27,811 bases of DNA from Saccoglossus kowalevskii (taxonomy: Eukaryota > Hemichordata > Enteropneusta > Harrimaniidae), in assembly GCF_000003605.2 (NCBI RefSeq), contig NW_003139904.1:1-27811 (forward strand), written 5' to 3'. How positions within the stretch are numbered: position 1 is the stretch's first letter; the number at the start of each line of letters is the position of its first letter. This document shows positions 1-27,811 of the stretch, in pieces. Position numbers and translations under genes: made by a program. The notes below the pieces were generated by a model, which worked only from the letters and a program-made list of their open reading frames with translations, searched no databases and was not told where the DNA came from.

Positions 1-167
1 CATTATTAGTCTCGATTTCGACTTCCGAAAGTTAAAGTTACGAAACCCGGGCAACCCACATGTTATGTTATTTAAAAAACATATACTATGTATTAGGTCT
101 TGTGGTACAGATTATTTCGAATTCAATTTCCCAAACTCGAGGTTGAGAACAGTGTTAATGCTTCAAT

Positions 168-238
168 GGCTTGTTGGTCTAGTGGTACGATTCCTGTTTC
201 GGGTATAGGAGGTCCTTGTTCGAACCGCGGACAAGCCC
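168..238 (+). pseudogene. tRNA-Pro(CGG) copy 1, T arm broken
   Basis: The acceptor stem and CGG anticodon loop are intact, but the T arm has lost one base and has substitutions (CTTGTTCGAACCGCGG), so the T stem cannot pair normally. The downstream T-run has decayed to GTTTATAAC, leaving no good Pol III terminator. Family 'a' flank. Confidence 0.75.
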
Positions 239-596
239 TTAGTTTATAACTGGAACGGTACTTCACCTTATCATTTAACAATGAAGTAATTTGTATAAAC
301 TTGCAGATTGTTGCAATATAAAGTAACATATGTTGCACAGGTTTCCAACTCCAGTAAAGCATATTCGCTCTCTGAAAGTAATTGATGCTATGTAAATTCA
401 TAGAATAAGTGATCACAACTGTATCAAAGACTTATTAATCTCGATTTCGACTTCCAGAAGTTGAGATAAGGAACCGCGGGCAACCCACATGTTATGTTAT
501 TTAGAAAACTTATACTATGTATTAGGTCTTGTGGTACAATTTATTTCTAATTCAATTTCTGAAACTCAAGGTTGAGAATTCTGTTAATGCGTCATT

Positions 597-668
597 GGCT
601 TGTTGGTCTAGTGGCACGATTCCTGTTTTGGGTACAGGAGCTCCCGGGTTCGAACCCCGGACAAGCCC
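597..668 (+). tRNA. tRNA-Pro(TGG), copy 2
   Basis: All stems pair as in the array consensus, but the anticodon loop is TTTGGGT, so bases 629-631 read TGG, which decodes CCA/CCG. Two further marks, GTGGCACG in the D loop and AGCTC in the variable loop, are shared only with copy 12 (4947). Both A and B boxes are intact and a T7 terminator follows. This is a well-formed proline isoacceptor different from the rest of the array. Confidence 0.9.
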
Positions 669-1026
669 TTGTTTTTTTAACTGGAATGGAATGGTACTTC
701 ATCTTATCATTTAACAATTATGTAATTTGTATAAACTTGCAGATTGTTCCAATATAAAGTAACACATGTTGGACAGGTTTCCAACTCCAGTAAAACATAT
801 TTGCTCTCTGAAACTAATTGATGCTATGTAAATTCATAGAATATGTGATCACAATTGTATCAAAGACTTATTAATCTCGATTTCGACTCCCAAAAGTTGA
901 GATAACGAACCCAGGCAACTCACATGTAATGTTATTTAGAAAACATATACTATGTATTAGGTCTTGTGTACATTTATTTTCTAATTCAATTTTCCAACTC
1001 GAGTTGAGACACTTTTATGCGTCATT

Positions 1027-1096
1027 GGCTTGTTGTCTAGTGTACGATTCCTGTTTCGGGTACAGAAGGTCCCGCGTTCGAACCCTGCACAATCCC
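1027..1096 (+). pseudogene. tRNA-Pro(CGG) copy 3, decayed
   Basis: Two one-base deletions shorten the D arm (TTGTCTAGTGTACG), damaging the A box. The T stem (CCGCG/CCTGC) and acceptor 3' strand (ACAATCC) carry the family 'd' mismatches. A T6 run follows. The spacer upstream (about 885-930, CGACTCCCAAAAGTTGAG) belongs to a rare divergent unit type shared with copies 46 and 65. Confidence 0.8.
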
Positions 1097-1460
1097 TGTG
1101 TTTTTTAACTGGAATGGAATGGTACTTCAGTTTATCATTTAACAAGTATGTAATTTGTATAAACTTGCAGATTGTTGCAATATAAAGTAACAAATGTTGG
1201 ACAGGTTTCCAACTCCAGTAAAAAATATTCGCTCTCTGAAAGTAATTGATGCTATGTAAATTCATAGAATAAGTGATCACAATTGTATCAAAGACTTACT
1301 AATCTCGATTTCGACTTCCAGAAGTTTAGATTAGGAACCGCCGGCAACCCACATGTTATGTTATTTAGAAAACATGTACTATGTATTAGGTCTTGTGGTA
1401 CAATTTATTTCTAATTCAATTTCCCAAACTCGAGGTTGAGAACAGTGTTAATGCTTCAAT

Positions 1461-1532
1461 GGCTTGTTGGTCTAGTGGTACGATTCTTGTTTCGGGTACA
1501 GGAGGTCCCGGGTTCGAACCCCGGACAAGCCC
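1461..1532 (+). tRNA. tRNA-Pro(CGG) copy 4
   Basis: Full cloverleaf with one wobble in the anticodon stem (CTTGT against ACAGG, T28-G42). Family 'a' flank and tail; T5 terminator. Confidence 0.92.
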
Positions 1533-1890
1533 TTAGTTTTTAACTGGAACGGTACTTCACCTTATCATTTAACAATTAAGTAATTTGTATAAACTTGCAG
1601 ATTGTTGCAATATAAAGTAACACATGTTGGACAGGTTTCCAACTCCAGTAAAACATATTCGCTCTCTGAAAGTAATTGATGCTATGTAAATTCATAGAAT
1701 AAGTGATCACAATTGTATCAAAGACTTATTAGTCTCGATTTCGACTTCCAAAAGTTAAAGTTACGAACCCCGGGCAACCCACATGTTATGTTATTTAGAA
1801 AACATATACTATGTATTAGGTCTTGTGGTACAGATTATTTCGAATTCAATTTACCAAACTCGGGATTGAGAACAGTGTTAATGCTTCAAT

Positions 1891-1962
1891 GGCTTGTTGG
1901 TCTAGTGGTACGATTCCTGTTTCGGGTACAGGAGGTCCCGGGTTCGAACCCCGGACAAGCCC
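1891..1962 (+). tRNA. tRNA-Pro(CGG) copy 5, consensus gene
   Basis: Reference copy. It decodes CCG as proline during cytosolic translation. Acceptor GGCTTGT (1-7) pairs perfectly with ACAAGCC; position 73 is C. The D arm begins GTC and has the invariant GG. Anticodon stem CCTGT/ACAGG encloses TTCGGGT, with T33, CGG at 34-36 and G37. The variable loop is AGGTC and the T arm is CCGGG-TTCGAAC-CCCGG. Internal A box TGGTCTAGTGG is at 1898-1908 and B box GGTTCGAACCC at 1941-1951. No intron and no encoded CCA. T5 run downstream. Nuclear tRNA-Pro with C73 is typical of eukaryotes. Confidence 0.96.
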
Positions 1963-2315
1963 TTAGTTTTTAACTGGAACGGTACTTCACCTTATCATTT
2001 AACAATTAAGTAATTTGTATGAACTTGCAGATTGTTGCAATATAAAGTAACACACGTTGCACAGGTTTCCAACTCCAGTAAAACATATTCGCTCTCTGAA
2101 AGTAATTGATGCTATGTAAATTCATAGAATAAGTGATCACAACTGTATCAAAGACTTATTAATCTCGATTTCAACTTCCCGAAGTTGAGATTAGGAACCG
2201 CGGGCAACCGTTATGTTATTTAGAAAACATATACTATGTATTAGGTCTTGTAGTACAATTTATTTCTAATTCAATTTCTAAAACTCGAGGTTGAGAATTC
2301 TGTTAATGCGTCATT

Positions 2316-2387
2316 GGCTTGTTGGTCTAGTGGTACGATTCCTGTTTCGGGTACAGGAGGTCCCGGGTTCGAACCCCGGACAAGCCC
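2316..2387 (+). tRNA. tRNA-Pro(CGG) copy 6
   Basis: Same 72 bases as the consensus, in a family 'b' flank (ATTCTGTTAATGCG) with a T7 terminator. Confidence 0.95.
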
Positions 2388-2751
2388 TGGTTTTTTTAAC
2401 TGGAATGGAATGGTACTTCAACTTATCATTTAACAATTATGTAATTTGTATAAACTTGCAGATTGTTGCAATATAAAGTAACAAATGTTGGAGAGGTTTC
2501 CAACACCAGTAAAAAATATTTGCTATTTGAAAGTAATTGATGCTATGTAAATTCATAGAATAAGTGATCACAATTGTATCAAAGACTTATTAATCTCGAT
2601 TTCGACTTCCAGAAGTTTAGATTAGGAACCGCCGGCAACCCACATGTTATGTTATTTAGTAAACATGTACTATGTATTAGGTCTTGTGGTACAATTGATT
2701 TCTAATTCAATTTCTGAAACTTGAGGTTGAGCCTTCTGTTAATGCGTCATT

Positions 2752-2823
2752 GGCTTGTTGGTCTAGTGGTACGATTCCTGTTTCGGGTACAGGAGGTCCC
2801 GGGTTCAAACCCCGGACAAGCCC
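2752..2823 (+). tRNA. tRNA-Pro(CGG) copy 7
   Basis: All stems pair; the T loop is TTCAAAC, so the B box is GGTTCAAACCC. Family 'e' flank (GCCTTCTGTTAATGCG), shared with copies 13 and 16. T5 terminator. Confidence 0.94.
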
Positions 2824-3191
2824 ATGCTTTTTAACTGGACTGGAATGGAATGGTACTTCATCTTATCATTTAACAATTATGTAATTTGTATAAACTTGCA
2901 GATTGTTGCAATATAAAGTAACAAATGTTGGAGAGGTTTCCAACACCAGTAAAAAATATTTGCTATTTGAAAGTAATTGATGCTATGTAAATTCATAGAA
3001 TAAGTGATCACAATTGTATCAAAGACTTATTAATCTCGATTTCGACTTCCAGAAGTTTAGATTAGGAACCGCCGGCAACCCACATGTTATGTTATTTAGT
3101 AAACATGTACTATGTATTAGGTCTTGGGGTACAATTGATTTCTAATTCAATTTCCCAAACTCGAGGTTGAGAACACTTCTAATGCGTCATT

Positions 3192-3263
3192 GGCTTGTTG
3201 GTCTAGTGGTACGATTCCTGTTTCGAGTACAGGAGGTCCCGGCTTCAAACCCCGGACAAGCTC
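3192..3263 (+). pseudogene. tRNA-Pro body with CGA (Ser) anticodon, copy 8
   Basis: One substitution turns the anticodon loop into TTCGAGT, so 3224-3226 read CGA, which would pair with the serine codon UCG. The rest is a proline tRNA body and lacks the long variable arm of tRNA-Ser. The T stem has a C53-C61 mismatch (CCGGC/CCCGG), and T72 makes a G-U at the acceptor end (ACAAGCT). T5 run follows. Probably a defective copy; if expressed it could mis-decode, but that is speculation. Confidence 0.7.
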
Positions 3264-3631
3264 TTGCTTTTTAACTGGACTGGAATGGAATGGTACTTCA
3301 TCTTATCATTTAACAATTATGTAATTTGTATAAACGTTTTCATTGTTGCAATATAAAGTAACACATGTTGGACAGGTTTCCAACTCCAGTAAAAATATTC
3401 GCTCTCTGAAAGTAAATTATGCTATGTAAATTCATAGAATATGTGATCATAATTGTATCAAAGACTTATTAGTCTCGATTTCGACTTCCAAAAGTTAAAG
3501 TTAGGAACCGCGGGCAACCCCACATGTTATGTTATTTAGAAAAACATATACTATGTATTAGGTCTTGTGGTACAATTAATTTCTAATTCAATTCTGAAAC
3601 TCGAGGTTGAGAATTCTGTTAATGGGTCATT

Positions 3632-3703
3632 GGCTTGTTGGTCTAGAGGTACGATTCCTGTTTCGGGTACAGGAGGTCCCGCGTTCGAACCCTGCACAAT
3701 CCC
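3632..3703 (+). pseudogene. tRNA-Pro(CGG)-like family 'd', copy 9
   Basis: Typical member of a defective subfamily. T stem CCGCG/CCTGC has two mismatches plus one G-U, and acceptor ACAATCC mismatches at 3-70. The A box (TGGTCTAGAGG), anticodon CGG and B-box core GTTCGAACCC remain. The flank reads TTAATGGGTCATT and the tail is a long T8 run. Shared defects with copies 28, 29, 49 and 56 show that it was amplified after it broke. Confidence 0.85.
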
Positions 3704-4067
3704 TGTTTTTTTTAACTGGAATGGAATGGTACTTCAGTTTATCATTTAACAAGTATGTAATTTGTATAAACTTGCAGATTGTTGCAATATAAAGTAACAA
3801 ATGTTGGACAGGTTTCCAACTCCAGTAAAAAATATTCGCTCTCTGAAAGTAATTGATGCTATGTAAATTCATAGAATAAGTGATCACAACTGTATCAAAG
3901 ACTTATTAATCTCGATTTCGACTTCCAGAAGTTGAGATTAGGAACCGCGGGCAACCCACATGTTATGTTATTAAGAAAACATTTACTATGTATTAGGTCT
4001 TGTGGTACAATTTATTTCTAATTCAATTTCTGAAACTCGAGGTTGAGAATTCTGTTAATGCGTCATT

Positions 4068-4139
4068 GGCTTGTTGGTCTAGTGGTACGATTCCTGTTTC
4101 GGGTACAGGACATCTCGGGTTCGAACCCCGGACAAGCCC
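4068..4139 (+). tRNA. tRNA-Pro(CGG) copy 10
   Basis: Variable/T region is ACATC-TCGGG, giving a T49-G65 wobble; all other stems pair. T6 terminator, followed by three GGAAT repeats (4153-4167) where most units have two. Confidence 0.9.
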
Positions 4140-4507
4140 TAGTTTTTTAACTGGAATGGAATGGAATGGTACTTCATCTTATCATTTAACAATTATGTAA
4201 TTTGTATAAACTTGCAGATTGTTGCAATATAAAGTAACAAATGTTGGACAGGTTTCCAAATCCAGTAAAAAATATTCGCTCTCTGAAAGTAATTGATGCT
4301 ATGTAAATTCATAGAATAAGTGATCACAATTGTATCAAAGACTTATTAATCTCGATTTCGACTTCCAGAAGTTTAGATTAGGAACCGCCGGCAACCCACA
4401 TGTTATGTTATTTAGAAAACATGTACTATGTATTAGGTCTTGTGGTACAGATTATTTCGAATTCAATTTCCCAAACTCGAGGTTGAGAACACTTCTAATG
4501 CGTCATT

Positions 4508-4579
4508 GGCTTGTTGGTCTAGTGGTACGATTCCTGTTTCGGGTACAGGAGGTCACGGGTTCAAACCCCGGACAAGCCC
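4508..4579 (+). tRNA. tRNA-Pro(CGG) copy 11
   Basis: Family 'c' gene with A49 (GGTCACGGG), which mismatches G65 at the end of the T stem; otherwise intact. The upstream spacer has the CAGATTATTTCG marker normally found in family 'a', a mosaic also seen at copy 58 (24708). T5. Confidence 0.85.
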
Positions 4580-4946
4580 TTGCTTTTTAACTGGACTGGA
4601 ATGGAATGGTACTTCATCTTATCATTTAACAATTATGTAATTTGTATAAACGTTTTCATTGTTGCAATATAAAGTAACACATGTTGGACAGGTTTCCAAC
4701 TCCAGTAAAATATTCGCTCTCTGAAAGTAATTTATGCTATGTAAATTCATAGAATATGTGGATCACAATTGTATCAAAGACTTATAATCTCGATTTCGAC
4801 TTCCCGAAGTTAAAGTAAGGAACGGCGGGGCAACCCACATGTTATGTTATTTAGAAAACTTATACTATGTATTAGGTCTTGTGGTACAATTTATTTCTAA
4901 TTCAATTTTTGAAACTCAAGGTTGAGAATTCTGTTAATGCGTCATT

Positions 4947-5018
4947 GGCTTGTTGGTCTAGTGGCACGATTCCTGTTTGGGGTACAGGAGCTCCCGGGTT
5001 CGAACCCCGGACAAGCTC
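4947..5018 (+). tRNA. tRNA-Pro(GGG), copy 12
   Basis: Anticodon loop TTGGGGT, so 4979-4981 read GGG, which would decode CCC/CCU. It shares GTGGCACG and AGCTC with copy 2, so the two are sister copies with different changes at base 34. T72 gives a G1-U72 wobble (ACAAGCTC); all other stems pair. T7 terminator. Confidence 0.87.
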
Positions 5019-5382
5019 TTGTTTTTTTAACTGGAATGGAATGGTACTTCACCTTATCATTTAACAATTATGTAATTTGTATAAACTTGCAGATTGTTGC
5101 AATATAAAGTAACAAATGTTGGAGAGGTTTCCAACATCAGTAAAAAATATTTGCTATTTGAAAGTAATTGATGCTATGTAAATTCATAGAATAAGTGATC
5201 ACAATTGTATCAAAGACTTATTAATCTCGATTTCGACTTCCAGAATTTTAGATTAGGAACCGCCGGCAACCCACATGTTATGTTATTTAGTAAACATGTA
5301 CTATGTATTAGGTCTTGTGGTACAATTGATTTCTAATTCAATTTCTGAAACTTGAGGTTGAGCCTTCTGTTAATGCGTCATT

Positions 5383-5454
5383 GGCTTGTTGGTCTAGTGG
5401 TACGATTCCTGTTTCGGGTACAGGAGGTCCCGGGTTCAAACCCCGGACAAGCCC
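5383..5454 (+). tRNA. tRNA-Pro(CGG) copy 13
   Basis: Intact, T loop TTCAAAC, family 'e' flank, T5. Copies 13-14 and 16-17 form matching pairs at an offset of 1302 bp. Confidence 0.94.
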
Positions 5455-5821
5455 TTGCTTTTTAACTGGACTGGAATGGAATGGTACTTCATCTTATCAT
5501 TTAACAATTATGTAATTTGTATAAACGTTTTCATTGTTGCAATATAAAGTAACACATGTTGCACAGGTTTCCAACTCCAGTAAAAATATTCGCTCTCTGA
5601 AAGTAAATTATGCTATGTAAATTCATAGAATATGTGATCATAATTGTATCAAAGACTTATTAGTCTCGATTTCGACTTCCAAAAGTTAAAGTTAGGAACC
5701 GCGGGCAACCCACATGTTATGTTATTTAGAAAACTTATACTATGTATTAGGTCTTGTGGTACAGATTATTTCGAATTCAATTTCCCAAACTCGAGGTTGA
5801 AAACAGTGTTAATGCTTCAAT

Positions 5822-5893
5822 GGCTTGTTGGTCTAGTGGTACGATTCCTGTTTCGGGTACAGGAGGTCCCGGGTTCGAACCCCGGACAAGCCC
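5822..5893 (+). tRNA. tRNA-Pro(CGG) copy 14
   Basis: Consensus sequence; family 'a' flank (TTGAAAACAG instead of TTGAGAACAG); T6 terminator. Confidence 0.95.
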
Positions 5894-6180
5894 TTAGTTT
5901 TTTAACTGGAACGGTACTTCACCTTATCATTTAACAATTAAGTATTTTGTATAAACTTGCAGATTGTTGCAATATAAAGTAACACATGTTGCACAGGTTT
6001 CCAACTCCAGTAAAAACATATTCGCTCTCTGAAAGTAATTGATGCTATGTAAATTCATAGAATATGTGATCATAATTGTATCAAAGACTTATTAGTCTCG
6101 ATTTCGACTTCCAAAAGTTAAAGTTACGAACCCCGGGCAACCCACATGTTATGTTATTTAGAAAACATATACTATGTATT

Positions 6181-6236
6181 AGGTCTTGTGGTACAGATTA
6201 TTTCGAATTCAATTTACCAAACTCGAGGTTGAGAAC
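6181..6236 (+). pseudogene. Relic tRNA-like A/B-box pair upstream of copy 15 (family 'a' form)
   Basis: AGGTCTTGTGG (6181-6191) differs from the tRNA A box at two of 11 positions and is followed by TAC, GATT and TTTCG in tRNA order. GGTTGAGAAC (6227-6236) sits where a B box would be. Both elements lie 80 and 77 bp upstream of their counterparts in copy 15. This version keeps more tRNA-like bases than the more common ACAATTTATTTC form. A decayed tandem tRNA copy is an inference. Confidence 0.5.
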
Positions 6237-6253
6237 AGTGTTAATGCTTCAAT

Positions 6254-6325
6254 GGCTTGTTGGTCTAGTGGTACGATTCCTGTTTCGGGTACAGGAGGTC
6301 CCGGGTTCGAACCCCGGACAAGCCC
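6254..6325 (+). tRNA. tRNA-Pro(CGG) copy 15
   Basis: Consensus sequence, family 'a', T5. The tail has an extra T (GTACTTTCACC). Confidence 0.95.
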
Positions 6326-6684
6326 TTAGTTTTTAACTGGAACGGTACTTTCACCTTATCATTTAACAATTAAGTAATTTGTATGAACTTGCAGATTGTT
6401 GCAATATAAAGTAACACATGTTGCACAGGTTTCCAACTCCAGTAAAACATATTCGCTCTCTGAAAGTAATTGATGCTATGTAAATTCATAGAATAAGTGA
6501 TCACAACTGTATCAAAGACTTATTAATCTCGATTTCGACTTCCAGAAGTTGAGATTAGGAACCGCCGGCAACCCACATGTTATGTTATTTAGTAAACATG
6601 TACTATGTATTAGGTCTTGTGGTACAATTGATTTCTAATTCAATTTCTGAAACTTGAGGTTGAGCCTTCTGTTAATGCGTCATT

Positions 6685-6756
6685 GGCTTGTTGGTCTAGT
6701 GGTACGATTCCTGTTTCGGGTACAGGAGGTCCCGGGTTCAAACCCCGGACAAGCCC
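6685..6756 (+). tRNA. tRNA-Pro(CGG) copy 16
   Basis: Intact, T loop TTCAAAC, family 'e' flank, T5 terminator. Confidence 0.94.
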
Positions 6757-7123
6757 TTGCTTTTTAACTGGACTGGAATGGAATGGTACTTTATCTTATC
6801 ATTTAACAATTATGTAATTTGTATAAACGTTTTCATTGTTGCAATATAAAGTAACACATGTTGGACAGGTTTCCAACTCCAGTAAAAATATTCGCTCTCT
6901 GAAAGTAAATTATGCTATGTAAATTCATAGAATATGTGATCATAATTGTATCAAAGACTTATTAGTCTCGACTTCGACTTCCAAAAGTTAAAGTTAGGAA
7001 CCGCGGGCAACCCACATGTTATGTTATTTAGAAAACACATACTATGTATTAGGTCTTGTGGTACAGATTATTTCGAATTCAATTTACCAAACTCGGGATT
7101 GAGAACAGTGTTAATGCTTCAAT

Positions 7124-7195
7124 GGCTTGTTGGTCTAGTGGTACGATTCCTGTTTCGGGTACAGGAGGTCCCGGGTTCGAACCCTGGACAAGCCC
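7124..7195 (+). tRNA. tRNA-Pro(CGG) copy 17
   Basis: Intact apart from a G51-U63 wobble in the T stem (CCTGG). Family 'a', T5. Confidence 0.92.
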
Positions 7196-7548
7196 TTAGT
7201 TTTTAACTGGAACGGTACTTCACCTTATCATTTAACAATTAAGTAATTTGTATGAACTTGCAGATTGTTGCAATATAAAGTAACACACGTTGCACAGGTT
7301 TCCAACTCCAGTAAAACATATTCGCTCTCTGAAAGTAATTGATGCTATGTAAATTCATAGAATAAGTGATCACAACTGTATCAAAGACTTATTAATCTCG
7401 ATTTCAACTTCCCGAAGTTGAGATTAGGAACCGCGGGCAACCGTTATGTTATTTAGAAAACATATACTATGTATTAGGTCTTGTAGTACAATTTATTTCT
7501 AATTCAATTTCTAAAACTCGAGGTTGAGAATTCTGTTAATGCGTCATT

Positions 7549-7620
7549 GGCTTGTTGGTCTAGTGGTACGATTCCTGTTTCGGGTACAGGAGGTCCCGGG
7601 TTCGAACCCCGGACAAGCCC
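7549..7620 (+). tRNA. tRNA-Pro(CGG) copy 18
   Basis: Consensus sequence, family 'b', T6 terminator. Confidence 0.95.
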
Positions 7621-7982
7621 TGGTTTTTTAACTGGAATGGAATGGTACTTCAACTTATCATTTAACAATTATGTAATTTGTATAAACTGCAGATTGTTGC
7701 AATATAAAGTAACAAATGTTGGACAGGTTTCCAACTCCAGTAAAAAACATTCGCTCTCTGAAAGTAATTGATGCTATGTAAATTCATAGAATAAGTGATC
7801 ACAATTGTATCAAAGACTTATTAATCTCGATTTCGACTTCCAGAAGTTTAGATTAGGAACCGCCGGCAACCCACATGTTATGTTATTTAGAAAACATGTA
7901 CTATGTATTAGGTCTTGTGGTACAATTTATTTCTAATTCAATTTCCCAAACTCGAGGTTGAGAACACTTCTAATGCGTCATT

Positions 7983-8054
7983 GGCTTGTTGGTCTAGTGG
8001 TACGATTCTTGTTTCGGGTACAGGAGGTCCCGGGTTCAAACCCCGGACAAGCCC
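7983..8054 (+). tRNA. tRNA-Pro(CGG) copy 19
   Basis: Family 'c': T loop TTCAAAC, anticodon stem CTTGT with T28-G42 wobble, T5. Confidence 0.93.
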
Positions 8055-8065
8055 TTGCTTTTTAA
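8055..8065 (+). terminator. Pol III T-run terminator (representative)
   Basis: TTGCTTTTTAA directly follows copy 19; the T5 tract is enough for RNA polymerase III. Across the array the tract is T5-T9 in nearly all units, T4 after copy 29, and lost after copies 1 and 51. Confidence 0.85.
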
Positions 8066-8157
8066 CTGGACTGGAATGGAATGGTACTTCATCTTATCAT
8101 TTAACAATTATGTAATTTGTATAAACGTTTTCATTGTTGCAATATAAAGTAACACAT

Positions 8158-8175
8158 GTTGGACAGGTTTCCAAC
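8158..8175. repeat. Inverted repeat GTTGGA-6-TCCAAC (representative)
   Basis: A perfect 6-bp stem with loop CAGGTT, present in most units; in units reading GTTGCACAGG it has one mismatch. Function unknown. Confidence 0.6.
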
Positions 8176-8312
8176 TCCAGTAAAACATATTCGCTCTCTG
8201 AAAGTAATTGATGCTATGTAAATTCATAGAATAAGTGATCACAATTGTATCAAAGACTTATTAATCTCGATTTCGACTTCCAGAAGTTTAGATTAGGAAC
8301 CGCCGGCAACCC

Positions 8313-8339
8313 ACATGTTATGTTATTTAGAAAACATGT
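8313..8339. repeat. Inverted repeat ACATGTT-13-AACATGT (representative)
   Basis: A 7-bp stem around a 13-base loop. It is perfect in units ending AACATGTAC; in the many units with AACATATAC one stem pair is lost, so strong selection on the hairpin is unlikely. Confidence 0.55.
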
Positions 8340-8349
8340 ACTATGTATT

Positions 8350-8405
8350 AGGTCTTGTGGTACAATTTATTTCTAATTCAATTTCCCAAACTCGAGGTTG
8401 AGAAC
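8350..8405 (+). pseudogene. Relic tRNA-like A/B-box pair upstream of copy 20 (common form)
   Basis: AGGTCTTGTGG-TAC-AATT at 8350-8367 matches the tRNA stretch TGGTCTAGTGG-TAC-GATT with three differences in 18. GGTTGAGAAC begins at 8396, 46 bp from the A-like start; the real boxes are 43 bp apart. The pair lies 80/77 bp upstream of the boxes of copy 20. Similar sequence precedes nearly every tRNA in the array. No stems are preserved. Confidence 0.5.
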
Positions 8406-8422
8406 ACTTCTAATGCGTCATT

Positions 8423-8494
8423 GGCTTGTTGGTCTAGTGGTACGATTCTTGTTTCGGGTACAGGAGGTCCCGGGTTCAAACCCCGGACAAGCCC
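8423..8494 (+). tRNA. tRNA-Pro(CGG) copy 20
   Basis: Identical to copy 19 (family 'c', CTTGT anticodon stem, TTCAAAC T loop, T5). Confidence 0.93.
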
Positions 8495-8861
8495 TTGCTT
8501 TTTAACTGGACTGGAATGGAATGGTACTTCATCTTATCATTTAACAATTATGTAATTTGTATAAACGTTTTCATTGTTGCAATATAAAGTAACACATGTT
8601 GGACAGGTTTCCAACTCCAGTAAAAATATTCGCTCTCTGAAAGTAAATTATGCTATGTAAATTCATAGAATATGTGATCACATTTGTATCAATGACTTAT
8701 TAGTCTCGATTTCGACTTCCAAAAGTTAAAGTTACGAACCCCGGGCAACCCACATGTTATGCTATTTAGAAAACATATACTATGTATTAGGTCTTGTGGT
8801 ACAGATTATTTCGAATTCAATTTCCCAAACTCGATGTTGAGAACAGTGTTAATGCTTCAAT

Positions 8862-8933
8862 GGCTTGTTGGTCTAGTGGTACGATTCCTGTTTCGGGTAC
8901 AGGAGGTCCCGGGTTCGAACCCAGGGCAAGCCC
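8862..8933 (+). tRNA. tRNA-Pro(CGG) copy 21, T-stem mismatch
   Basis: The 3' half reads CCAGG-GCAAGCC, giving a G51-A63 mismatch and a T7-G66 wobble. The spacer upstream carries CACATTTGTATCAATGAC and GTTATGCTATTTAG, shared with copies 25, 40 and 54. T5. Confidence 0.75.
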
Positions 8934-12354: not shown

Positions 12355-12426
12355 GGCTTGTTGGTCTAGAGGTACGATTCCTGTTTCGGGTACAGGAGGT
12401 CCCGCGTTCGAACCCTGCACAATCCC
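12355..12426 (+). pseudogene. tRNA-Pro(CGG)-like family 'd', copy 29
   Basis: Same defects as copy 28, next to it. The tail lost about 30 bp including the GGAAT repeats, so TGTTTTATCATTTAAC leaves only T4. Confidence 0.85.
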
Positions 12427-12615: not shown

Positions 12616-12668
12616 NNNNNNNNNNNNNNNNNNNNNNNNNNNNNNNNNNNNNNNNNNNNNNNNNNCCC
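12616..12668 (+). other. Assembly gap hiding one or more tRNA units
   Basis: Fifty Ns (12616-12665) run from the spacer motif CGACTT straight to CCC, the last three bases of a tRNA. In a full unit these points are about 245 bp apart, so at least about 195 bp is missing and 50 looks like a placeholder. The body of copy 30 lies in the gap, and whole extra units may as well. Confidence 0.9.
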
Positions 12669-16514: not shown

Positions 16515-16586
16515 GGCTTGTTGGTCTAGTGGTACGATTCCTGTTTCGGGTACAGGAGGTCCCGGGTTCAAACCCCGGACAAGCCC
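16515..16586 (+). tRNA. tRNA-Pro(CGG) copy 39
   Basis: Intact family 'c' gene, T5. Confidence 0.94.
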
Positions 16587-16953
16587 TTGCTTTTTAACTG
16601 GACTGGAATGGAATGGTACTTCATCTTATCATTTAACAATTATGTAATTTGTATAAACGTTTTCATTGTTGCAATATAAAGTAACACATGTTGGACAGGT
16701 TTCCAACTCCAGTAAAAATATTCGCTCTCTGAAAGTAAATTATGCTATGTAAATTCATAGAATATGTGATCACATTTGTATCAATGACTTATTAGTCTCG
16801 ATTTCGACTTCCAAAAGTTAAAGTTACGAACCCCGGGCAACCCACATGTTATGCTATTTAGAAAACATATACTATGTATTAGGTCTTGTGGTACAGATTA
16901 TTTCGAATTCAATTTCCCAAACTCGAGGTTGAGAACAGTGTTAATGCTTCAAT

Positions 16954-18765: not shown

Positions 18766-19133
18766 TTGCTTTTTAACTGGACTGAAATGGAATTTTACTT
18801 CATCTTATCATTTAACAATTATGTAATTTGTATAAACGTTTTCATTGTTGCAATATAAAGTAACAAATGTTGGACATGTTTCCAACTCCAGTAAAAAATA
18901 TTCGCTCTCTGAAAGTAATTGATGCTATGTAAATTCATAGAATAAGTGATCACAATTGTATCAAAGACTTATTAATCTCGATTTCGACTTCCAGAAGTTT
19001 AGATTAGGAACCGCCGGCAACCCACATGTTATGTTATTTAGAAAACATATACTATGTATTAGGTCTTGTGGTAAAATTTATTTCTAATTCAATTTCCCAA
19101 ACTCGAGGTTGAGAACACTTTTAATGCGTCAAT

Positions 19134-19204
19134 GGCTTGTTGGTCTAGTGGTACGATTCCTGTTTCGGGTACTGGAGGTCCCAGTTCGAACCTCGGACAA
19201 GCCC
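19134..19204 (+). pseudogene. tRNA-Pro(CGG) copy 45, broken
   Basis: One base is missing from the T arm (CCCAGTTCGAACCTCGG), and ACTGG mismatches the anticodon stem. The tail joins CCC directly to T7 and then has an atypical spacer (CTTAACAATGATGAATTATG). Confidence 0.8.
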
Positions 19205-19557
19205 TTTTTTTAACTGGAATGGTGCTTCATCTTAACAATGATGAATTATGTAATTTGTATAAACTTGCAGTTTGTTGCAATATAAAGTAACACATGTTGG
19301 ACAGGTTTCCAACTCCAGTAAAACATATTCGCTCTCTGAAACTAATGATGCTATGTAAATTCATAGAATAAGTGATCACAACTGTATCAAAGACTTATAT
19401 CTCGATTTCGACTCCCAAAAGTTGAGATAAGGAACCCAGGGCAACCCGCATGTTATGTTATTTAGAAAACATATACTATGTATAGGTGTTGGGGTACAAT
19501 TTAATTCTAATTCAATTTCAGAAACTCGAGGCTTGAGAACACAGTTAATGCGTCATT

Positions 19558-19584
19558 GGCTTGTCGGTCTAGTTGTACGATTCC
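19558..19584 (+). pseudogene. tRNA-Pro copy 46, 5' fragment
   Basis: Only about the first 27 bases remain (GGCTTGTCGGTCTAG onward, with G9-region and D-loop changes). The sequence then jumps at CGATTCC into the spacer motif AATTATGTAATTTG. About 90 bp, covering the anticodon, T arm, terminator and GGAAT repeats, was deleted, shortening this unit to 344 bp. The unit upstream is the rare CGACTCCCAAAAGTTGAG type. Confidence 0.88.
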
Positions 19585-19901
19585 AATTATGTAATTTGTA
19601 TAAACTTGCAGATTGTTGCAATATAAAGTAACAAATTTTGGACAGGTTTCCAACTCCAGTAAATAATATTCGCTCTCTGAAAGTAATTGATGCTATGTAA
19701 ATTCATAGAATAAGTGATCACAATTGTATCAAACACTTATTAATCTCGATTTCGACTTCCAGAAGTTTAGATTAGGAACCGCCGGCAACCCACATGTTAT
19801 GTTATTTAGAAAACATATACTATGTATTAGGTCTTGTGGTACAATTTATTTCTAATTCAATTTCCCAAACTCGAGGTTGAGAACACTTTTAATGCGTCAT
19901 T

Positions 19902-19973
19902 GGCTTGTTGGTCTAGTGGTACGATTCCTGTTTCGGGTACAGGAGGTCCCGGGTTCAAACCCCGGACAAGCCC
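19902..19973 (+). tRNA. tRNA-Pro(CGG) copy 47
   Basis: Intact, T loop TTCAAAC, flank ACACTTTTAATGCG, T5. Confidence 0.94.
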
Positions 19974-20341
19974 TTGCTTTTTAACTGGACTGGAATGGAA
20001 TGGTACTTCATCTTATCATTTAACAATTATGTAATTTGTATAAACGTTTTCATTGTTGCAATATAAAGTAACAAATGTTGGACAGGTTTCCAACTCCAGT
20101 AAAAAATATTCGCTCTCTGAAAGTAATTGATGCTATGTAAATTCATAGAATAAGTGATCACAATTGTATCAAAGACTTATTAATCTCGATTTCGACTTCC
20201 AGAAGTTTAGATTAGGAACCGCCGGCAACCCACATGTTATGTTATTTAGAAAACATGTACTATGTATTAGGTCTTGTGGTACAATTTATTTCTAATTCAA
20301 TTTCCCAAACTCGAGGTTGAGAACACTTCTAATGCGTCATT

Positions 20342-20413
20342 GGCTTGTTGGTCTAGTGGTACGATTCCTGTTTCGGGTACAGGAGGTCCCGGGTTCAAAC
20401 CCCGGACAAGCCC
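20342..20413 (+). tRNA. tRNA-Pro(CGG) copy 48
   Basis: Intact family 'c' gene; tail TTGATTTTTAAC (T5). Confidence 0.94.
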
Positions 20414-20781
20414 TTGATTTTTAACTGAACTGGAATGGAATGGTACTTCATCTTATCATTTAACAATTATGTAATTTGTATAAACGTTTTCATTGTTGCA
20501 ATATAAAGTAACACATGTTGGACATGTTTCCAACTCCAGTAAAAAATATTCGCTCTTTGAAAGTAAATTATGCTATGTAAATTCATAGAATATGTGATCA
20601 CAATTGTATCAAAGACTTATTAGTCTAGATTTCGACTTCCAAAAGTTAAAGTTAGGAACCGCGGGCAACCCACATGTTATGTTATTTAGAAAACATATAC
20701 TATGTATAAGGTCTTGTGGTACAATTAATTTCTAATTCAATTTCTGAAACTCGAGGTTGAGAATTCTGTTAATGGGTCATT

Positions 20782-20853
20782 GGCTTGTTGGTCTAGAGGT
20801 ACGATTCCTGTTTCGGGTACAGGAGGTCCCGCGTTCGAACCCTGGACAATCCC
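20782..20853 (+). pseudogene. tRNA-Pro(CGG)-like family 'd', copy 49
   Basis: T stem CCGCG/CCTGG with the C52-C62 mismatch, acceptor ACAATCC mismatch at 3-70, D loop TCTAGAGG; T8. Confidence 0.83.
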
Positions 20854-21217
20854 TGTTTTTTTTAACTGGAATGGAATGGTACTTCAGTTTATCATTTAAC
20901 AAGTATGTAATTTGTATAAACTTGCAGATTGTTGTAATATAAAGTAACAAATGTTGGACAGGTTTCCAACTCCAGTAAAAAATATTCGCTCTCTGAAAGT
21001 AATTGATGCTATGTAAATTCATAGAATAAGTGATCACAATTGTATCAAAGACTTATTAATCTCGATTTCGACTTCCAGAAGTTTAGATTAGGAACCGCCG
21101 GCAACCCACATGTTATGTTATTTAGAAAACATGTACTATGTATTAGGTCTTGTGGTACAATTTATTTCTAATTCAATTTCCCAAACTCGAGGTTGAGAAC
21201 ACTTCTAATGCGTCATT

Positions 21218-21289
21218 GGCTTGTTGGTCTAGTGGTACGATTCTTGTTTCGGGTACAGGAGGTCCCGGGTTCAAACCCCGGACAAGCCC
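21218..21289 (+). tRNA. tRNA-Pro(CGG) copy 50
   Basis: Family 'c' with CTTGT anticodon stem, C73, T5. Confidence 0.93.
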
Positions 21290-21656
21290 TTGCTTTTTAA
21301 CTGGACTGGAATGGAATGGTACTTCATCTTATCATTTAACAATTATGTAATTTGTATAAACGTTTTCATTGTTGCAATATAAAGTAACACATGTTGGACA
21401 GGTTTCCAACTCCAGTAAAAATATTCGCTCTCTGAAAGTAAATTATGCTATGTAAATTCATAGAATATGTGTTCACAATTGTATCAAAGACTTATTAGTC
21501 TCGATTTCGACTTCCAAAAGTTAAAGTTAGGAACCGCGGGCAACCCACATGTTATGTTATTTAGAAAACATATACTATGTATTAGGTCTTGTGGTACAAT
21601 TAATTTCTAATTCGATTTCTGAAACTCGAGGTTGAAAATTCTGTTAATGCGTCATT

Positions 21657-21728
21657 GGCTTGTTGGTCTAGAGGTACGATTCCTGTTTCGGGTACAGGAG
21701 GTCCCGGGTTCGAACCCTGGACAATCCC
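21657..21728 (+). tRNA. tRNA-Pro(CGG) copy 51, family 'd-prime', no terminator
   Basis: C3-U70 acceptor mismatch as in copies 34 and 37. The T-run is interrupted (GGTATTTGTTAAC), so transcripts would probably read into the spacer. Confidence 0.72.
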
Positions 21729-22093
21729 TGGTATTTGTTAACTGGAATGGAATGGTACTTCATCTTATCATTTAACAAGTATGTAATTTGTATAAACTTG
21801 CAGATTGTTGCAATATAAAGTAACAAATGTTGGACAGGTTTCCAACTCCAGTAAAAAATATTCGCTCTCTGAAAGCAATTGGTGCTATGTAAATTCATAG
21901 AATAAGTGATCACAACTGTATCAAAGACTTATTAATCTCGATTTCGACTTACAGAAGTTAAGATTAGGAACTGCGGGCAACCCACATGTTATGTTATTTA
22001 GAAAACATATACTATGTATTAGGTCTTGTGGTACAATTTATTTCTAATTCAATTTCTGAAACTCGAGGTTGAGAATTCTGTTAATGCGTCATT

Positions 22094-22165
22094 GGCTTGT
22101 TGGTCTAGTGGTACGATTCCTGTTTCGGGTACAGGACGTCTCGGGTTCGAACCCCGGACAAGCCG
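22094..22165 (+). tRNA. tRNA-Pro(CGG) copy 52
   Basis: ACGTC-TCGGG type with all stems paired; base 73 is G instead of C. T6. Confidence 0.87.
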
Positions 22166-22528
22166 TGGTTTTTTAACTGGAATGGAATGGTACTTCATCT
22201 TATCATTTAACAATTATGTAATTTGTATGAACTTGCAGATTGTTGCAATATAAAGTAACAAATGTTGGACAGGTTTCCAACTCCAGTAAAAAATATTCGC
22301 TCTCTGAAAGTAATTGATGCTATGTAAATTCATAGATTAAGTGATCACAATTGTATCAAAGACTTATTAATCTCGATTTTGACTTCCAGAAGTTTAGATT
22401 AGGAACCGCCGGCATCCCACATGTTATGTTATTTAGAAAACATGTACTATGTATTAGGTCTTGTGGTACAATTTATTTCTAATTCAATTTCCCAAACTCG
22501 AGATTGAGAACACTTCTAATGCGTCATT

Positions 22529-22600
22529 GGCTTGTTGGTCTAGTCGTACGATTCCTGTTTCGGGTACAGGAGGTCCCGGGTTCAAACCCCGGACAAGCCC
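22529..22600 (+). tRNA. tRNA-Pro(CGG) copy 53, D-loop GG lost
   Basis: D loop TAGTCGTAC replaces the first G of the conserved GG; stems are intact. T5. Confidence 0.8.
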
Positions 22601-22967
22601 TTGCTTTTTAACTGGACTGGAATGGAATGGTACTTCATCTTATCATTTAACAATTATGTAATTTGTATAAACGTTTTCATTGTTGCAATATAAAGTAACA
22701 CATGTTGGACAGGTTTCCAACTCCAGTAAAAATATTCGCTCTCTGAAAGTAAATTATGCTATGTAAATTCATAGAATATGTGATCACATTTGTATCAATG
22801 ACTTATTAGTCTCGATTTCGACTTCCAAAAGTTAAAGTTACGAACCCCGGGCAACCCACATGTTATGCTATTTAGAAAACATATACTATGTATTAGGTCT
22901 TGTGGTACAGATTATTTCGAATTCAATTTCCCAAACTCGAGGTTGAGAACAGTGTTAATGCTTCAAT

Positions 22968-23039
22968 GGCTTGTTGGTCTAGTGGTACGATTCCTGTTTC
23001 GGGTGCAGGAGGTCCTGGGTTCGAACCCCGGACAAGCCC
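22968..23039 (+). tRNA. tRNA-Pro(CGG) copy 54
   Basis: Same sequence as copy 40 (GCAGG and CTGGG wobbles), T5. Confidence 0.9.
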
Positions 23040-23397
23040 TTAGTTTTTAACTGGAACGGTACTTCTTCTTATCATTTAACAATTAAGTAATTTGTATAAA
23101 CTTGCAGATTGTTGCAATATAAAGTAACAAATGTTGGACAGGTTTCCAACTCCAGTAAAAAATATTCGCTCTCTGAAAGTAATTGATGCTATGTAAATTC
23201 ATAGAATAAGTGATCACAATTGTATCAAAGACTTATTAATCTCGATTTTGACTTCCAGAAGTTTAGATTAGGAACCGCCGGCATCCCACATGTTATGTTA
23301 TTTAGAAAACATGTACTATGTATTAGGTCTTGTGGTACAATTTATTTCTAATTCAATTTCCCAAACTCGAGGTTGAGAACACTTCTAATGCGTCATT

Positions 23398-23469
23398 GGC
23401 TTGTTGGTCTAGTGGTACGATTCCTGTTTCGGGTACAGGAGGTCCCGGGTTCAAACCCCGGACAAGCCT
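23398..23469 (+). tRNA. tRNA-Pro(CGG) copy 55
   Basis: Intact stems, T73 instead of C73, T5. Confidence 0.88.
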
Positions 23470-23836
23470 TTGCTTTTTAACTGGACTGGAATGGAATGGT
23501 ACTTCATCTTATCATTTAACAATTATGTAATTTGTATAAACGTTTTCATTGTTGCAATATAAAGTAACACATGTTGGTCAGGTTTCCAACTCCAGTAAAA
23601 ATATTCGCTCTCTGAAAGTAAATTATGCTATGTAAATTCATAGAATATGTGATCACAATTGTATCAAAGACTTATTAGTCTCGATTTCGACTTCCAAAAG
23701 TTAAAGTTAGGAACCGCGGGCAACCCACATGTTATGTTATTTAGAAAACATATACTATGTATTAGGTCTTGTGGTACAATTAATTTCTAATTCAATTTCT
23801 GAAACTCGAGGTTGAGAATTCCGTTAATGGGTCATT

Positions 23837-23908
23837 GGCTTGTTGGTCTAGAGCTAAGATTCCTGTTTCGGGTACAGAAGGTCCCGCGTTCGAACCCTGC
23901 ACAATCCC
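23837..23908 (+). pseudogene. tRNA-Pro(CGG)-like family 'd', copy 56
   Basis: The most decayed family 'd' copy: D arm GAGCTAAGATT damages the A box, the variable loop is AAGTC, and the T stem (CCGCG/CCTGC) and acceptor are defective. T8. Confidence 0.83.
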
Positions 23909-24272
23909 TGTTTTTTTTAACTGGAATGGAATGGTACTTCAGTTTATCATTTAACAAGTATGTAATTTGTATAAACTTGCAGATTGTTGCAATATAAAGT
24001 AACAAATGTTGGACAGGTTTCCAACTCCAGTAAAAAATATTCGCTCTCTGAAAGTAATTGATGCTATGTAAATTCATAGAATAAGTGATCACAATTGTAT
24101 CAAAGACTTATTAATCTCGATTTCGACTTCCAGAAGTTTAGATTAGGAACCGCCGGCAACCCACATGTTATGTTATTTAGAAAGCATGTACTATGTATTA
24201 GGTCTTGTGGTACAATTTATTTCTAATTCAATTTCCCAAACTCGAGGTTGAGAACAGTGTTAATGCTTCAAT

Positions 24273-24344
24273 GGCTTGTTGGTCTAGTGGTACGATTCTT
24301 GTTTCGGGTACAGGAGGTCCCGGGTTCGAAACACGGACAAGCCC
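24273..24344 (+). tRNA. tRNA-Pro(CGG) copy 57, T-arm variant
   Basis: TTCGAAA-CACGG T arm as in copies 25 and 35; T6. Confidence 0.75.
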
Positions 24345-24707
24345 TAGTTTTTTAACTGGAATGGAATGGTACTTCATCTTATCATTTAACAATTATGTAA
24401 TTTGTATAAACTTGCAGATTGTTGCAATATAAAGTAACAAATGTTGGACAGGTTTCCAAATCCAGTAAAAAATATTCGCTCTCTGAAAGTAATTGATGCT
24501 ATGTAAATTCATAGAATAAGTGATCACAATTGTATCAAAGACTTATTAATCTCGATTTCGACTTCCAGAAGTTTAGATTAGGAACCGCCGGCAACCCACA
24601 TGTTATGTTATTTAGAAAACATGTACTATGTATTAGGTCTTGTGGTACAGATTATTTCGAATTCAATTTCCCAAACTCGAGGTTGAGAACACTTCTAATG
24701 CGTCATT

Positions 24708-24779
24708 GGCTTGTTGGTCTAGTGGTACGATTCCTGTTTCGGGTACAGGAGGTCCCGGGTTCAAACCCCGGACAAGCCC
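24708..24779 (+). tRNA. tRNA-Pro(CGG) copy 58
   Basis: Intact family 'c' gene with a CAGATTATTTCG upstream marker. The unit is nearly the twin of copy 11, 20,200 bp away. T5. Confidence 0.93.
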
Positions 24780-25146
24780 TTGCTTTTTAACTGGACTGGA
24801 ATGGAATGGTACTTCATCTTATCATTTAACAATTATGTAATTTGTATAAACGTTTTCATTGTTGCAATATAAAGTAACAAATGTTGGACAGGTTTCCAAC
24901 TCCAGTAAAAATATTCGCTCTCTGAAAGTAAATTATGCAATGTAAATTCATAGAATATGTGATCACAATTGTATCAAAGACTTATTAGTCTCGATTTCGA
25001 CTTCCAAAAGTTAATGTTAGGAACCGCGGGCAACCCACATGTTATGTTATTTAGAAAACATATACTATGTATTAGGTCTTGTGGTACAATTAATTTCTAA
25101 TTCGATTTCTGAAACTCGAGGTTGAGAATTCTGTTAATACGTCATT

Positions 25147-25218
25147 GGCTTGTTGGTCTAGTGGTACGATTCCTGTTTCGGGTACAGGAGGTCCCGGGTT
25201 CGAACTGCGGACAAGCCC
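25147..25218 (+). pseudogene. tRNA-Pro(CGG) copy 59, T stem damaged
   Basis: The 3' side of the T arm reads TTCGAAC-TGCGG, giving G52-G62 and G53-U61. Other stems are intact. T5. Confidence 0.7.
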
Positions 25219-25576
25219 TTAGTTTTTAACTGGAATGGTACTTCACCTTATCATTTAACAATTATGCAATTTGTATAAACTTGCAGATTGTTGCAATATA
25301 AAGTAACATATGTTGCACAGGTTTCCAACTCCAGTAAAACATATTCGCTCTCTGAAAGTAATTGATGCTATGTAAATTCATAGAATAAGTGATCACAACT
25401 GTATCAAAGACTTATTAATCTCGATTTCGACTTCCAGAAGTTGAGATTAGGAACCGCGGGCAACCCGCATGTTATGTTATTTAGAAAACATATACTATGT
25501 AATAGGTCTTGTGGTACAATTTATTTCTAATTCAATTTCTGAAACTCGAGGTTGAGAATTCTGTTAATGCGTCATT

Positions 25577-25648
25577 GGCTTGTTAGTCTATTGGTACGAT
25601 TCCTGTTTCGGGTACAGGAGGTCCCGGTTTCGAACCCCGGACAAGCCC
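25577..25648 (+). pseudogene. tRNA-Pro(CGG) copy 60, A box and T stem damaged
   Basis: D arm TTAGTCTATTGG changes two A-box positions, including G10, and T53 mismatches C61 (CCGGT/CCCGG). T5. Confidence 0.72.
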
Positions 25649-26011
25649 TGGTTTTTAAACTGGAATGGAATGGTACTTCATCTTATCATTTAACAATTAT
25701 GTAATTTGTATAAACTTGCAGATTGTTGCAATATAAAGTAACAAATGTTGGACAGGTCTCCAACTCCAGTAAAAAATATTCGCTCTCTGAAAGTAATTGA
25801 TGCTATGTAAATTCATAGAATAAGTGATCACAATTGTATCAAAGACTTATTAATCTCGATTTCGACTTCCAGAAGTTTAGATTAGGAACCGCCGGCAACC
25901 CACATGTTATGTTATTTAGAAAACATGTACTATGTATTAGGTCTTGTGGTACAATTTATTTCTAATTCAATTTCTGAAACTCGAGGTTGAGAATTCTGTT
26001 AATGCGTCATT

Positions 26012-26082
26012 GGCTTGTTGGTCTACTTGTACGATTCCTGTTTCGGGTACAGGACGTCCCGGGTTCAAACCCCGACAAGCCC
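26012..26082 (+). pseudogene. tRNA-Pro(CGG) copy 61, one base short
   Basis: The T stem has lost a G (CCCGACAAGCCC), and the D loop reads TCTACTTGTACG, losing conserved A14/G15 and the GG. T5. Confidence 0.78.
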
Positions 26083-26450
26083 TTGCTTTTTAACTGGACT
26101 GGAATGGAATGGTACTTCATCTTATCATTTAACAATTATGTAATTTGTATAAACTTGCAGATTGTTGCAATATAAAGTAACAAATGTTGGACAGGTTTCC
26201 AACTCCAGTAAAAAATATTCGCTCTCTGAAAGTAATTGATGCTATGTAAATTCATAGAATAAGTGATCACAATTGTATCAAAGACTTATTAATCTCGATT
26301 TCGACTTCCAGAAGTTTGGATTAGGAACCGCCGGCAACCCACATGTTATGTTATTTAGAAAACATGTACTATGTATTAGGTCTTGTGGTACAATTTATTT
26401 CTAATTCAATTTCCCAAACTCGAGGTTGAGAACACTTCTAATGCGTCATT

Positions 26451-26522
26451 GGCTTGTTGGTCTAGTGGTACGATTCCTGTTTCGGGTACAGGAGGTCCCG
26501 GGTTCAAACCCCGGACAAGCCC
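26451..26522 (+). tRNA. tRNA-Pro(CGG) copy 62
   Basis: Intact family 'c' gene, T5. Confidence 0.94.
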
Positions 26523-26889
26523 TTGCTTTTTAACTGGACTGGAATGGAATGGTACTTCATCTTATCATTTAACAATGATGTAATTTGTATAAACGTTTTC
26601 ATTGTTGCAATATAAAGTAACACATGTTGGACAGGTTTCCAACTCCAGTAAAAATATTCGCTCTCTGAAAGTAAATTATGCTATGTAAATTCATAGAATA
26701 TGTGATCACATTTGTATCAATGACTTATTAGTCTCGATTTCGACTTCCAAAAGTTAAAGTTACGAACCCCGGGCAACCCACATGTTATGTTATTTAGAAA
26801 ACATATACTATGTATTAGGTCTTGTGGTACAATTTATTTCTAATTCAATTTCTGAAACTCGAGGTTGAGAATTCTGTTAATGCGTCATT

Positions 26890-26961
26890 GGCTTGTTGGT
26901 CTAGTGGTACGATTCCTGTTTCGGGTACAGGAGGTCCCGGGTTCAAACCCCGGACAAGCCC
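26890..26961 (+). tRNA. tRNA-Pro(CGG) copy 63, mosaic flanks
   Basis: Intact, with a family 'b' 5' flank and a TTCAAAC T loop/TTGC tail, and behind an upstream spacer of the CACATTTGTATCAATGAC type that elsewhere precedes family 'a'. T5. Confidence 0.93.
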
Positions 26962-27329
26962 TTGCTTTTTAACTGGACTGGAATGGAATGGTACTTCATC
27001 TTATCATTTAACAATTATGTAATTTGTATAAACTTGCAGATTGTTGCAATATAAAGTAACAAATGTTGGACAGGTTTCCAACTCCAGTAAAAAATATTCG
27101 CTCTCTGAAAGTAATTGATGCTATGTAAATTCATAGAATAAGTGATCACAATTGTATCAAAGACTTATTAATCTCGATTTCGACTTCCTGAAGTTTAGAT
27201 TAGGAACCGCCGGCAACCCACATGTTAAGTTATTTAGAAAACATATACTATGTATTAGGTCTTGTGGTACAATTTATTTCTAATTCAATTTCCCAAACTC
27301 GAGGTTAAGAACACGTCTAATGCGTCATT

Positions 27330-27401
27330 GGCTTGTTGGTCTCGTGGTACGATTCCTGTTTCGGGTACGGGAGGTCCTGGGTTCAAACCCCGGACAAGCC
27401 C
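27330..27401 (+). tRNA. tRNA-Pro(CGG) copy 64, A14 replaced
   Basis: The D loop reads TGGTCTCGTGG, so the invariant A14 (also an A-box base) is C. Stems pair with wobbles (ACGGG, CTGGG). T6. Confidence 0.78.
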
Positions 27402-27768
27402 TTGTTTTTTAACTGGACTGGAATGGAATGGTACTTCATCTTATCATTTAAGAATTATGTAATTTGTATAAACGTTTTCATTGTTGCAATATAAAGTAAC
27501 ACATGTTGGACAGGTTTCCTACTCCAGTAAAAAATATTCGATCTCTGAAAGTAATTGATGCTATGTAAATTCATAGAATAAGTGATCACAACTGTATCAA
27601 AGACTTATTAATCTCGATTTCGACTCCCAAAAGTTGAGATAAGGAACCCAGGGCAACCCACATGTAATGTTATTTAGAAAACATATACAATGTATTAGTT
27701 TTGTGGTACAATTTATTTCTAATTCAATTTCAGACACTCGAGGTTGAGAACATGGTTAATGCGTCATT

Positions 27769-27811
27769 GGCTTGTTGGTCTAGTGGTACGATTATGTTTC
27801 GGGTACAGGAG
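27769..27811 (+). pseudogene. tRNA-Pro(CGG) copy 65, cut by window end
   Basis: The first 43 bases are visible. GATTATGTTTCGGG lacks one base and breaks the 5' side of the anticodon stem, so this copy is already damaged. The unit upstream is the rare CGACTCCCAAAAGTTGAG type of copies 3 and 46. Confidence 0.75.

Follow-up and report, generated by a model that had tools for sequence, protein, structure and literature searches.

Tandem arrays of transfer RNA (tRNA) genes have been published for Hydractinia and Nematostella (PMC11067881), and the organisation of tRNA genes has been surveyed across 74 eukaryote genomes (PMC2888827). Animal tRNA genes, by most descriptions, are dispersed or form small clusters. 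One animal tandem family of tRNA genes (tDNA) is the 3.18-kb repeat of Xenopus, the unit of which encodes several tRNAs. The locus considered here is a window of 27,811 bases, the whole of contig C3110, from an assembly totalling 572,110,611 bases in 4830 contigs. It is filled by a tandem array of units bearing a gene for tRNA-Pro with the anticodon CGG. This array is probably a working, redundant and homogenised tandem gene family for tRNA-Pro(CGG), in a bilaterian animal with several arrayed tRNA families. A literature search, with most subscription journals outside its reach, found no account of this array.

Structure of the array

Using nhmmer (67 match rows), head-to-tail copies of the unit, all on one strand, were traced from base 3 to base 27811 (Table 1). 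Of 64 unit starts, 61 belong to full units; the others are at 12355, where a gap interrupts the unit, at 19558, where the unit is truncated, and at ~27769, where the contig ends within the unit. A 65th start is hidden in the gap, giving a total of approximately 65 units, the number that had been proposed in the first-pass annotation. Full units are 424–440 bp in length, with 439 bp being the commonest (15 of 61) followed by 440 bp (11 of 61), and each consists of a single tRNA-Pro gene and a spacer of approximately 360 bp. A 437-bp unit repeating without interruption had also been described; the tandem repetition throughout was borne out, while the single length and the continuity were not, given the spread of lengths, the 50-N gap and a deletion unit of 344 bp. 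Sixty of the 61 full units are distinct in sequence, with a mean pairwise identity of 93.4% (range 87.4–100%, n = 61). The arrangement is that of a tandem tRNA gene array, with many head-to-tail tRNA-bearing units and homologous spacers. No unique flanks were found on C3110, nor on a second contig with this unit, C2846, over the 10,000 bases that were read. The earlier statement that the array ends in neither direction is true, though the window is the entire contig.

Table 1. Positions of the array and of selected features in the window
Feature	Position	Strand	Comment
Head-to-tail array, ~65 units, each with one tRNA-Pro gene	1..27811	+	whole contig C3110
Decayed tRNA-like relic in spacer (candidate), A-box-like	92..139	+	lies upstream of the tRNA at 168, ending ~30 bp from it
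Example of a full unit	1461..1890	+	tRNA-Pro(CGG) at 1461-1532, then ~360 bp spacer
tRNA-Pro body with mutated anticodon CGA	3192..3263	+	called Ser by ARAGORN
50-N gap within the array	12616..12665	.	hides one unit start
tRNA-Pro(CGG), commonest haplotype (11/61 copies)	16515..16586	+	Rfam tRNA 54.1 bits
Spacer of the unit with the commonest-haplotype tRNA	16587..16953	+	oligo-T run after the tRNA, candidate terminator for RNA polymerase III (Pol III)
Deletion unit, 344 bp	19558..19901	+	tRNA cut after ~26 nt and joined to mid-spacer

Gene content and distribution of the isoacceptor

ARAGORN called 61 tRNAs in the window, 58 of which are Pro(CGG), in agreement with the initial description of an array of one isoacceptor. 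The remaining three, Pro(TGG), Pro(GGG) and Ser(CGA), each have an anticodon one base from CGG, and the program missed the tRNA in one full unit, that at 1027. The Rfam tRNA gathering score was reached by 52 copies, with a top score of 55.1 bits. The consensus tRNA forms 20 of 20 stem pairs; all of these are kept in 37 of the 61 copies, the CGG anticodon in 58 and both in 35, or in 45 of 83 copies when the units of C2846 are included. An exact A box was present in 47 of 61 units and a B box in 58, and a run of at least four T residues starts at the tRNA end, or at most six bases from it, in 59 of the 61 full units. By sequence, the cloverleaf, the A and B boxes and a candidate Pol III terminator, as expected of a functional tRNA gene, are all present.

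The distribution of the isoacceptor in the assembly was examined with an exact anticodon-arm pattern, covering the type of the window and the type of the AGG/TGG tRNAs with CGG in the loop. In the stretches scanned this gave 78 matches, with 53 on C3110, 18 on C2846, four on C271 and one each on C2507, C712 and C2127, and the reversed pattern as a control gave none. The two array contigs thus hold 71 of the 78 matches, placing most copies of the isoacceptor in arrays. Being exact, the pattern misses mutated arms, as seen in its 53 matches in the window against 58 Pro(CGG) calls by ARAGORN; the match on C712 is a copy with several changes within an AGG/TGG array. A 101-base spacer query matched C3110 or C2846 exclusively (40 scored of 88 candidates). 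On C2846 (10,251 bp, of which 10,000 were read) there are 23 ARAGORN tRNAs on one strand, 22 being Pro(CGG). This contig is approximately 92% identical to the window over 10 kb and so is not a duplicate of it; its sequence indicates that it is a further part of an array of the C3110 type. No match to the array was found in a plasmid collection, nor by an exact-pattern scan of a viral collection.

Elsewhere in the assembly, the full-unit query matched the tRNA and a few bases only (52 matches; 38 scored of 196 candidates). Three copies, two on C271 and one on C2507, were found to be 100% identical to the tRNA over 72–73 nt; the alignments of these contigs to the array stop at the tRNA ends, none continuing beyond them at an E-value of 1e-3. 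On these contigs it is thus the gene which has been conserved, between flanks unrelated to those of the array. In comparison to other tRNAs of this genome, the CGG consensus has 15 differences from Pro(AGG) and 14 from Pro(TGG). Eight of these differences make up four fully compensated Watson-Crick stem pairs (5:67, 27:41, 28:40 and 30:38), and against Pro(TGG) one more pair shifts from T-G to C-G, with no stem pair being broken. The compensated pattern suggests past selection on the cloverleaf and, together with the unchanged recurrence of the tRNA between unrelated flanks, indicates that the array tRNA descends from a real gene. It should also be noted that C271 carries a larger repeat of ~7.35 kb; each repeat contains three complete Pro-type tRNAs, along with several fragments of tRNAs.

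Other tRNAs are also found in long arrays. On C117, C4053 and C712, ARAGORN called 192, 182 and 132 tRNAs (506 in total), each contig having them on one strand; the counts cover the first 70,000 of 70,907 bases of C117 and the stretches read of the other two. Standard calls of Pro(TGG) or Pro(AGG) account for 182, 163 and 118 of these (463 of 506), at a spacing of mostly ~460, ~450 and ~200 bp, respectively. Genes of the two kinds partly alternate in these arrays. A search with the Rfam tRNA model placed 29 of 63 scored matches on C237 (36.6 kb) and 22 on C926 (28.9 kb), lying over most of each contig; drawn from 25,204 first-look candidates, these numbers do not represent gene counts. When one position was sampled on each of nine contigs, Arg(TCG) was found on C237, C1937, C3484 and C3006, Cys(GCA) on C926, C682 and C4368, Trp on C4826 and Thr on C4103. 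Three adjacent Arg(TCG) genes of C237 lie ~565 bp apart, and two units of this contig match at 545 positions, mismatch at 18 and have 6 gaps. Several isotypes are therefore arrayed, namely Pro(AGG/TGG) and Arg(TCG), with Cys(GCA) included on the basis of its 22 matches and one sampled position, and the view of the array as an oddity of a single isoacceptor does not hold.

Two further observations concern the genome as a whole. A let-7 match of 67.4 bits was found in the assembly (57 scored of 51,344 candidates), and let-7 is taken here to be a bilaterian marker. COX1 on C4830, read with translation table 5 as the one giving the longest open frame, has TGA as Trp and ATA as Met, with one AAA fitting Lys and no AGR codon; this codon usage argues against the echinoderm and flatworm codes.

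Within the spacer, positions 362–408 of the unit consensus resemble the 5′ part of the array tRNA (score of 35.0 against a shuffle mean of 21.6 and standard deviation of 3.1, reached by 1 of 2000 shuffles). This second stretch may be a decayed older tRNA copy, and its position in one unit, set by eye, is given in Table 1. A TGGAA duplication lies 3′ of the tRNA (consensus ~84–96), with TGGAATGGAATGG present in 47 of 61 units and TGGAATGG alone in three. Sub-threshold Rfam matches in the spacer (MIR7502, RAGATH-20, CC0196 and RUF1; one 901-base stretch) were attributed to chance.

Turnover and variation within the array

Clustering of the variable columns gave three monomer classes, the number of classes having been picked after viewing the data, with 19 of the 61 full units in class A, 26 in class B and 16 in class C. 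Among the 58 adjacent pairs, A was followed by C (9), B (7) or A (1), C was followed by B (11), C (3) or A (1), and B was followed by A (17), B (7) or C (2). This order is non-random (chi-square 29.0, 0 of 5000 shuffles), running mainly from A to C or B, from C to B and from B to A. Units 31 and 47 are identical and lie inside an exact repeat of 788 bp, the copies of which are 7314 bp apart. Neighbouring units were found to be no more alike than distant ones (mean of 0.926 at lag 1 versus 0.934 for all pairs). The class order and the identical distant units fit an exchange of blocks of a few units. As a long tandem array with class structure C3110 is also satellite-like, and such exchange would account for this structure.

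With C3110 as a working gene family, each unit would comprise one Pol III-type gene, with internal A and B boxes and an oligo-T terminator, together with its spacer. The array would have been expanded, contracted and homogenised by unequal exchange and gene conversion, and the surviving intact copies would supply most of the tRNA-Pro(CGG), leaving single copies nearly free to decay. Transcription of at least some of the copies would be expected. A more far-reaching proposal, possible but doubtful, is that this is a bilaterian in which nearly all the supply of one isoacceptor comes from a satellite-like array, its single copies being without measurable constraint and function being kept by copy number and exchange; a weak excess of variation in and near the tRNA would then be the footprint of heavy Pol III transcription.

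A number of observations weigh against a working gene family. The copy number is derived from one assembly. At least one stem pair is broken in 24 of the 61 copies, and stem-breaking changes are not depleted, with 18 observed and 18.0 expected at spacer rates in 61 copies. When C2846 was added (83 units), 21 such changes were observed against 21.5 expected, their share of all tRNA changes being slightly low (p 0.10). Nor do stem-breaking alleles fall significantly short of spacer alleles in their spread (p 0.25). Private substitutions per bp per unit are higher in the tRNA (0.0125) than in the rest of the unit (0.0080), with 92% of 72-base segments of the unit being no higher. There is no clear within-array purifying selection on the tRNA. 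Wobble might also allow Pro(TGG) tRNAs to read CCG codons, in which case the CGG genes may be non-essential.

Other measures of variation are as follows. Shared substitutions are 0.0214 in the tRNA versus 0.0370 in the rest of the unit, and diversity is 0.058 versus 0.066, with 13% and 28% of 72-base segments, respectively, being as low or lower; like the private substitutions, neither is exceptional for the unit. The spread of alleles at unpaired sites is marginally below that of spacer alleles (p 0.048, among several tests made), and one tRNA site, position 56, is divided between A and G (26 and 35 of 61 copies). Variability is greater in the tRNA and the flanks next to it than in the distal spacer, the value being reached by 26 of 435 circular shifts for distinct substitutions and 47 of 435 for private ones; since the bins were picked after viewing the profile, transcription-associated mutation is a hint only. 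A partly similar variability profile was seen in the arrays of Pro(AGG) and Pro(TGG) genes. From these, 216 and 295 copies, respectively, were aligned out of 516 anchored, 5 having been excluded because of N or of a stretch end. Their tRNA diversity (0.052 and 0.056) does not exceed that of the flanks (0.135 and 0.054; 0.083 and 0.192), and private substitutions are higher in the tRNA than in the flanks; as these flanks mix monomer and dimer forms, the comparison is not a clean test. At the level of single segments, tRNA positions 1–8 have zero substitutions in the 61 copies (4.0 distinct changes being expected for 1–7 at spacer rates), and positions 65–72, the 3′ acceptor strand and last base, have 11 distinct changes against 4.6 expected, both contrasts being uncorrected for multiple comparisons.

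Alternative explanations and described systems

The first-pass annotation had raised the possibility of a tRNA-derived satellite rather than a means of tRNA supply. Under this explanation a tRNA-Pro(CGG) gene would have been captured by a tandem repeat and multiplied with it by satellite expansion while silent, with the supply coming from the few copies on C2507, C271 and C2127. It is in keeping with the class order, which resembles a higher-order repeat, with the 24 of 61 copies having a broken stem pair, with the lack of clear tRNA protection in the array and with the missing unique flanks on C3110 and over the 10,000 bases of C2846 that were read. Clustered tDNAs of Arabidopsis, Pro included, likewise lie in regions which silence them in seedlings (PMC12308677). 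Relaxed constraint, however, is expected of a redundant family and of a silent satellite alike and so cannot decide between them. Evidence against a satellite instead of a tRNA source comes from the 71 of 78 anticodon-arm matches in the array, from the compensated stems, from an array consensus identical to the three copies on C271 and C2507, and from the B box in 58 and T-run in 59 of 61 units. Arrays of other isotypes are also unexpected from a chance capture. The satellite-like character of the array is therefore retained, its standing in place of a tRNA source is not supported, and a silent satellite is considered unlikely.

It is very improbable that a few true units were multiplied by the assembler. 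The repeat-only contig with its 50-N gap, and the one identical unit pair within the 788-bp exact repeat, could point to such an artefact, but the 60 of 61 distinct units, with their mean identity of 93.4% and lowest identity of 87%, argue against it, as do the approximately 92% likeness of C2846 to the window over 10 kb and the long arrays of other tRNAs in the same assembly. Least probable of all, and close to negligible, is a short interspersed nuclear element (SINE) or other tRNA-headed retroelement in tandem, since its likeness in having a tRNA head on a body unrelated to it and another tRNA-like stretch, now decayed, and the precedents of the Schistosoma mansoni tRNA-Gln SINEs which inflate tRNA counts and of the ~650 S. 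japonicum tRNA pseudogenes derived from tRNA-Pro-CGG (PMC2770079), are outweighed by the strict one-strand head-to-tail order, the confinement of spacer matches to C3110 and C2846 (among the 40 scored of 88 candidates) and the finding of the tRNA part only, with no dispersed whole units, elsewhere (among the 38 scored of 196).

The array offers a natural test of tRNA family maintenance inside satellite-like DNA, as array-specific variants could be sought directly in mature tRNA. In relation to the arrays already described, Hydractinia is a cnidarian, whereas the genome here, with its let-7 match, is presumably bilaterian. Entamoeba offers a likeness in that most tRNA genes lie in long tandem arrays, the homogenisation of which is ascribed there to concerted evolution; its units differ in holding 1–5 tRNA types, with one tRNA gene per unit found here, and every array unit of E. 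histolytica and E. dispar is reported to carry short tandem repeats (PMC2652664). Arabidopsis is similar in having tandem tRNA-Pro genes, with 27 copies on chromosome 1, although its Pro and Ser-Tyr-Tyr tDNA clusters are those of a plant, with fewer copies, and are described as silenced in seedlings (PMC12652284, PMC12308677). The human tRNA variable number tandem repeat (VNTR) at 1q23.3 is likewise a tandem tRNA-bearing unit in an animal, but is described as having a 7.3-kb GC-rich CTCF-binding unit with 9–43 per allele (PMC4041453). Given these published arrays of Hydractinia, Entamoeba, plants and the human VNTR, the array of C3110 is a further case of a known arrangement, and a further, apparently bilaterian, genome with long arrays widens the few cases described in animals.

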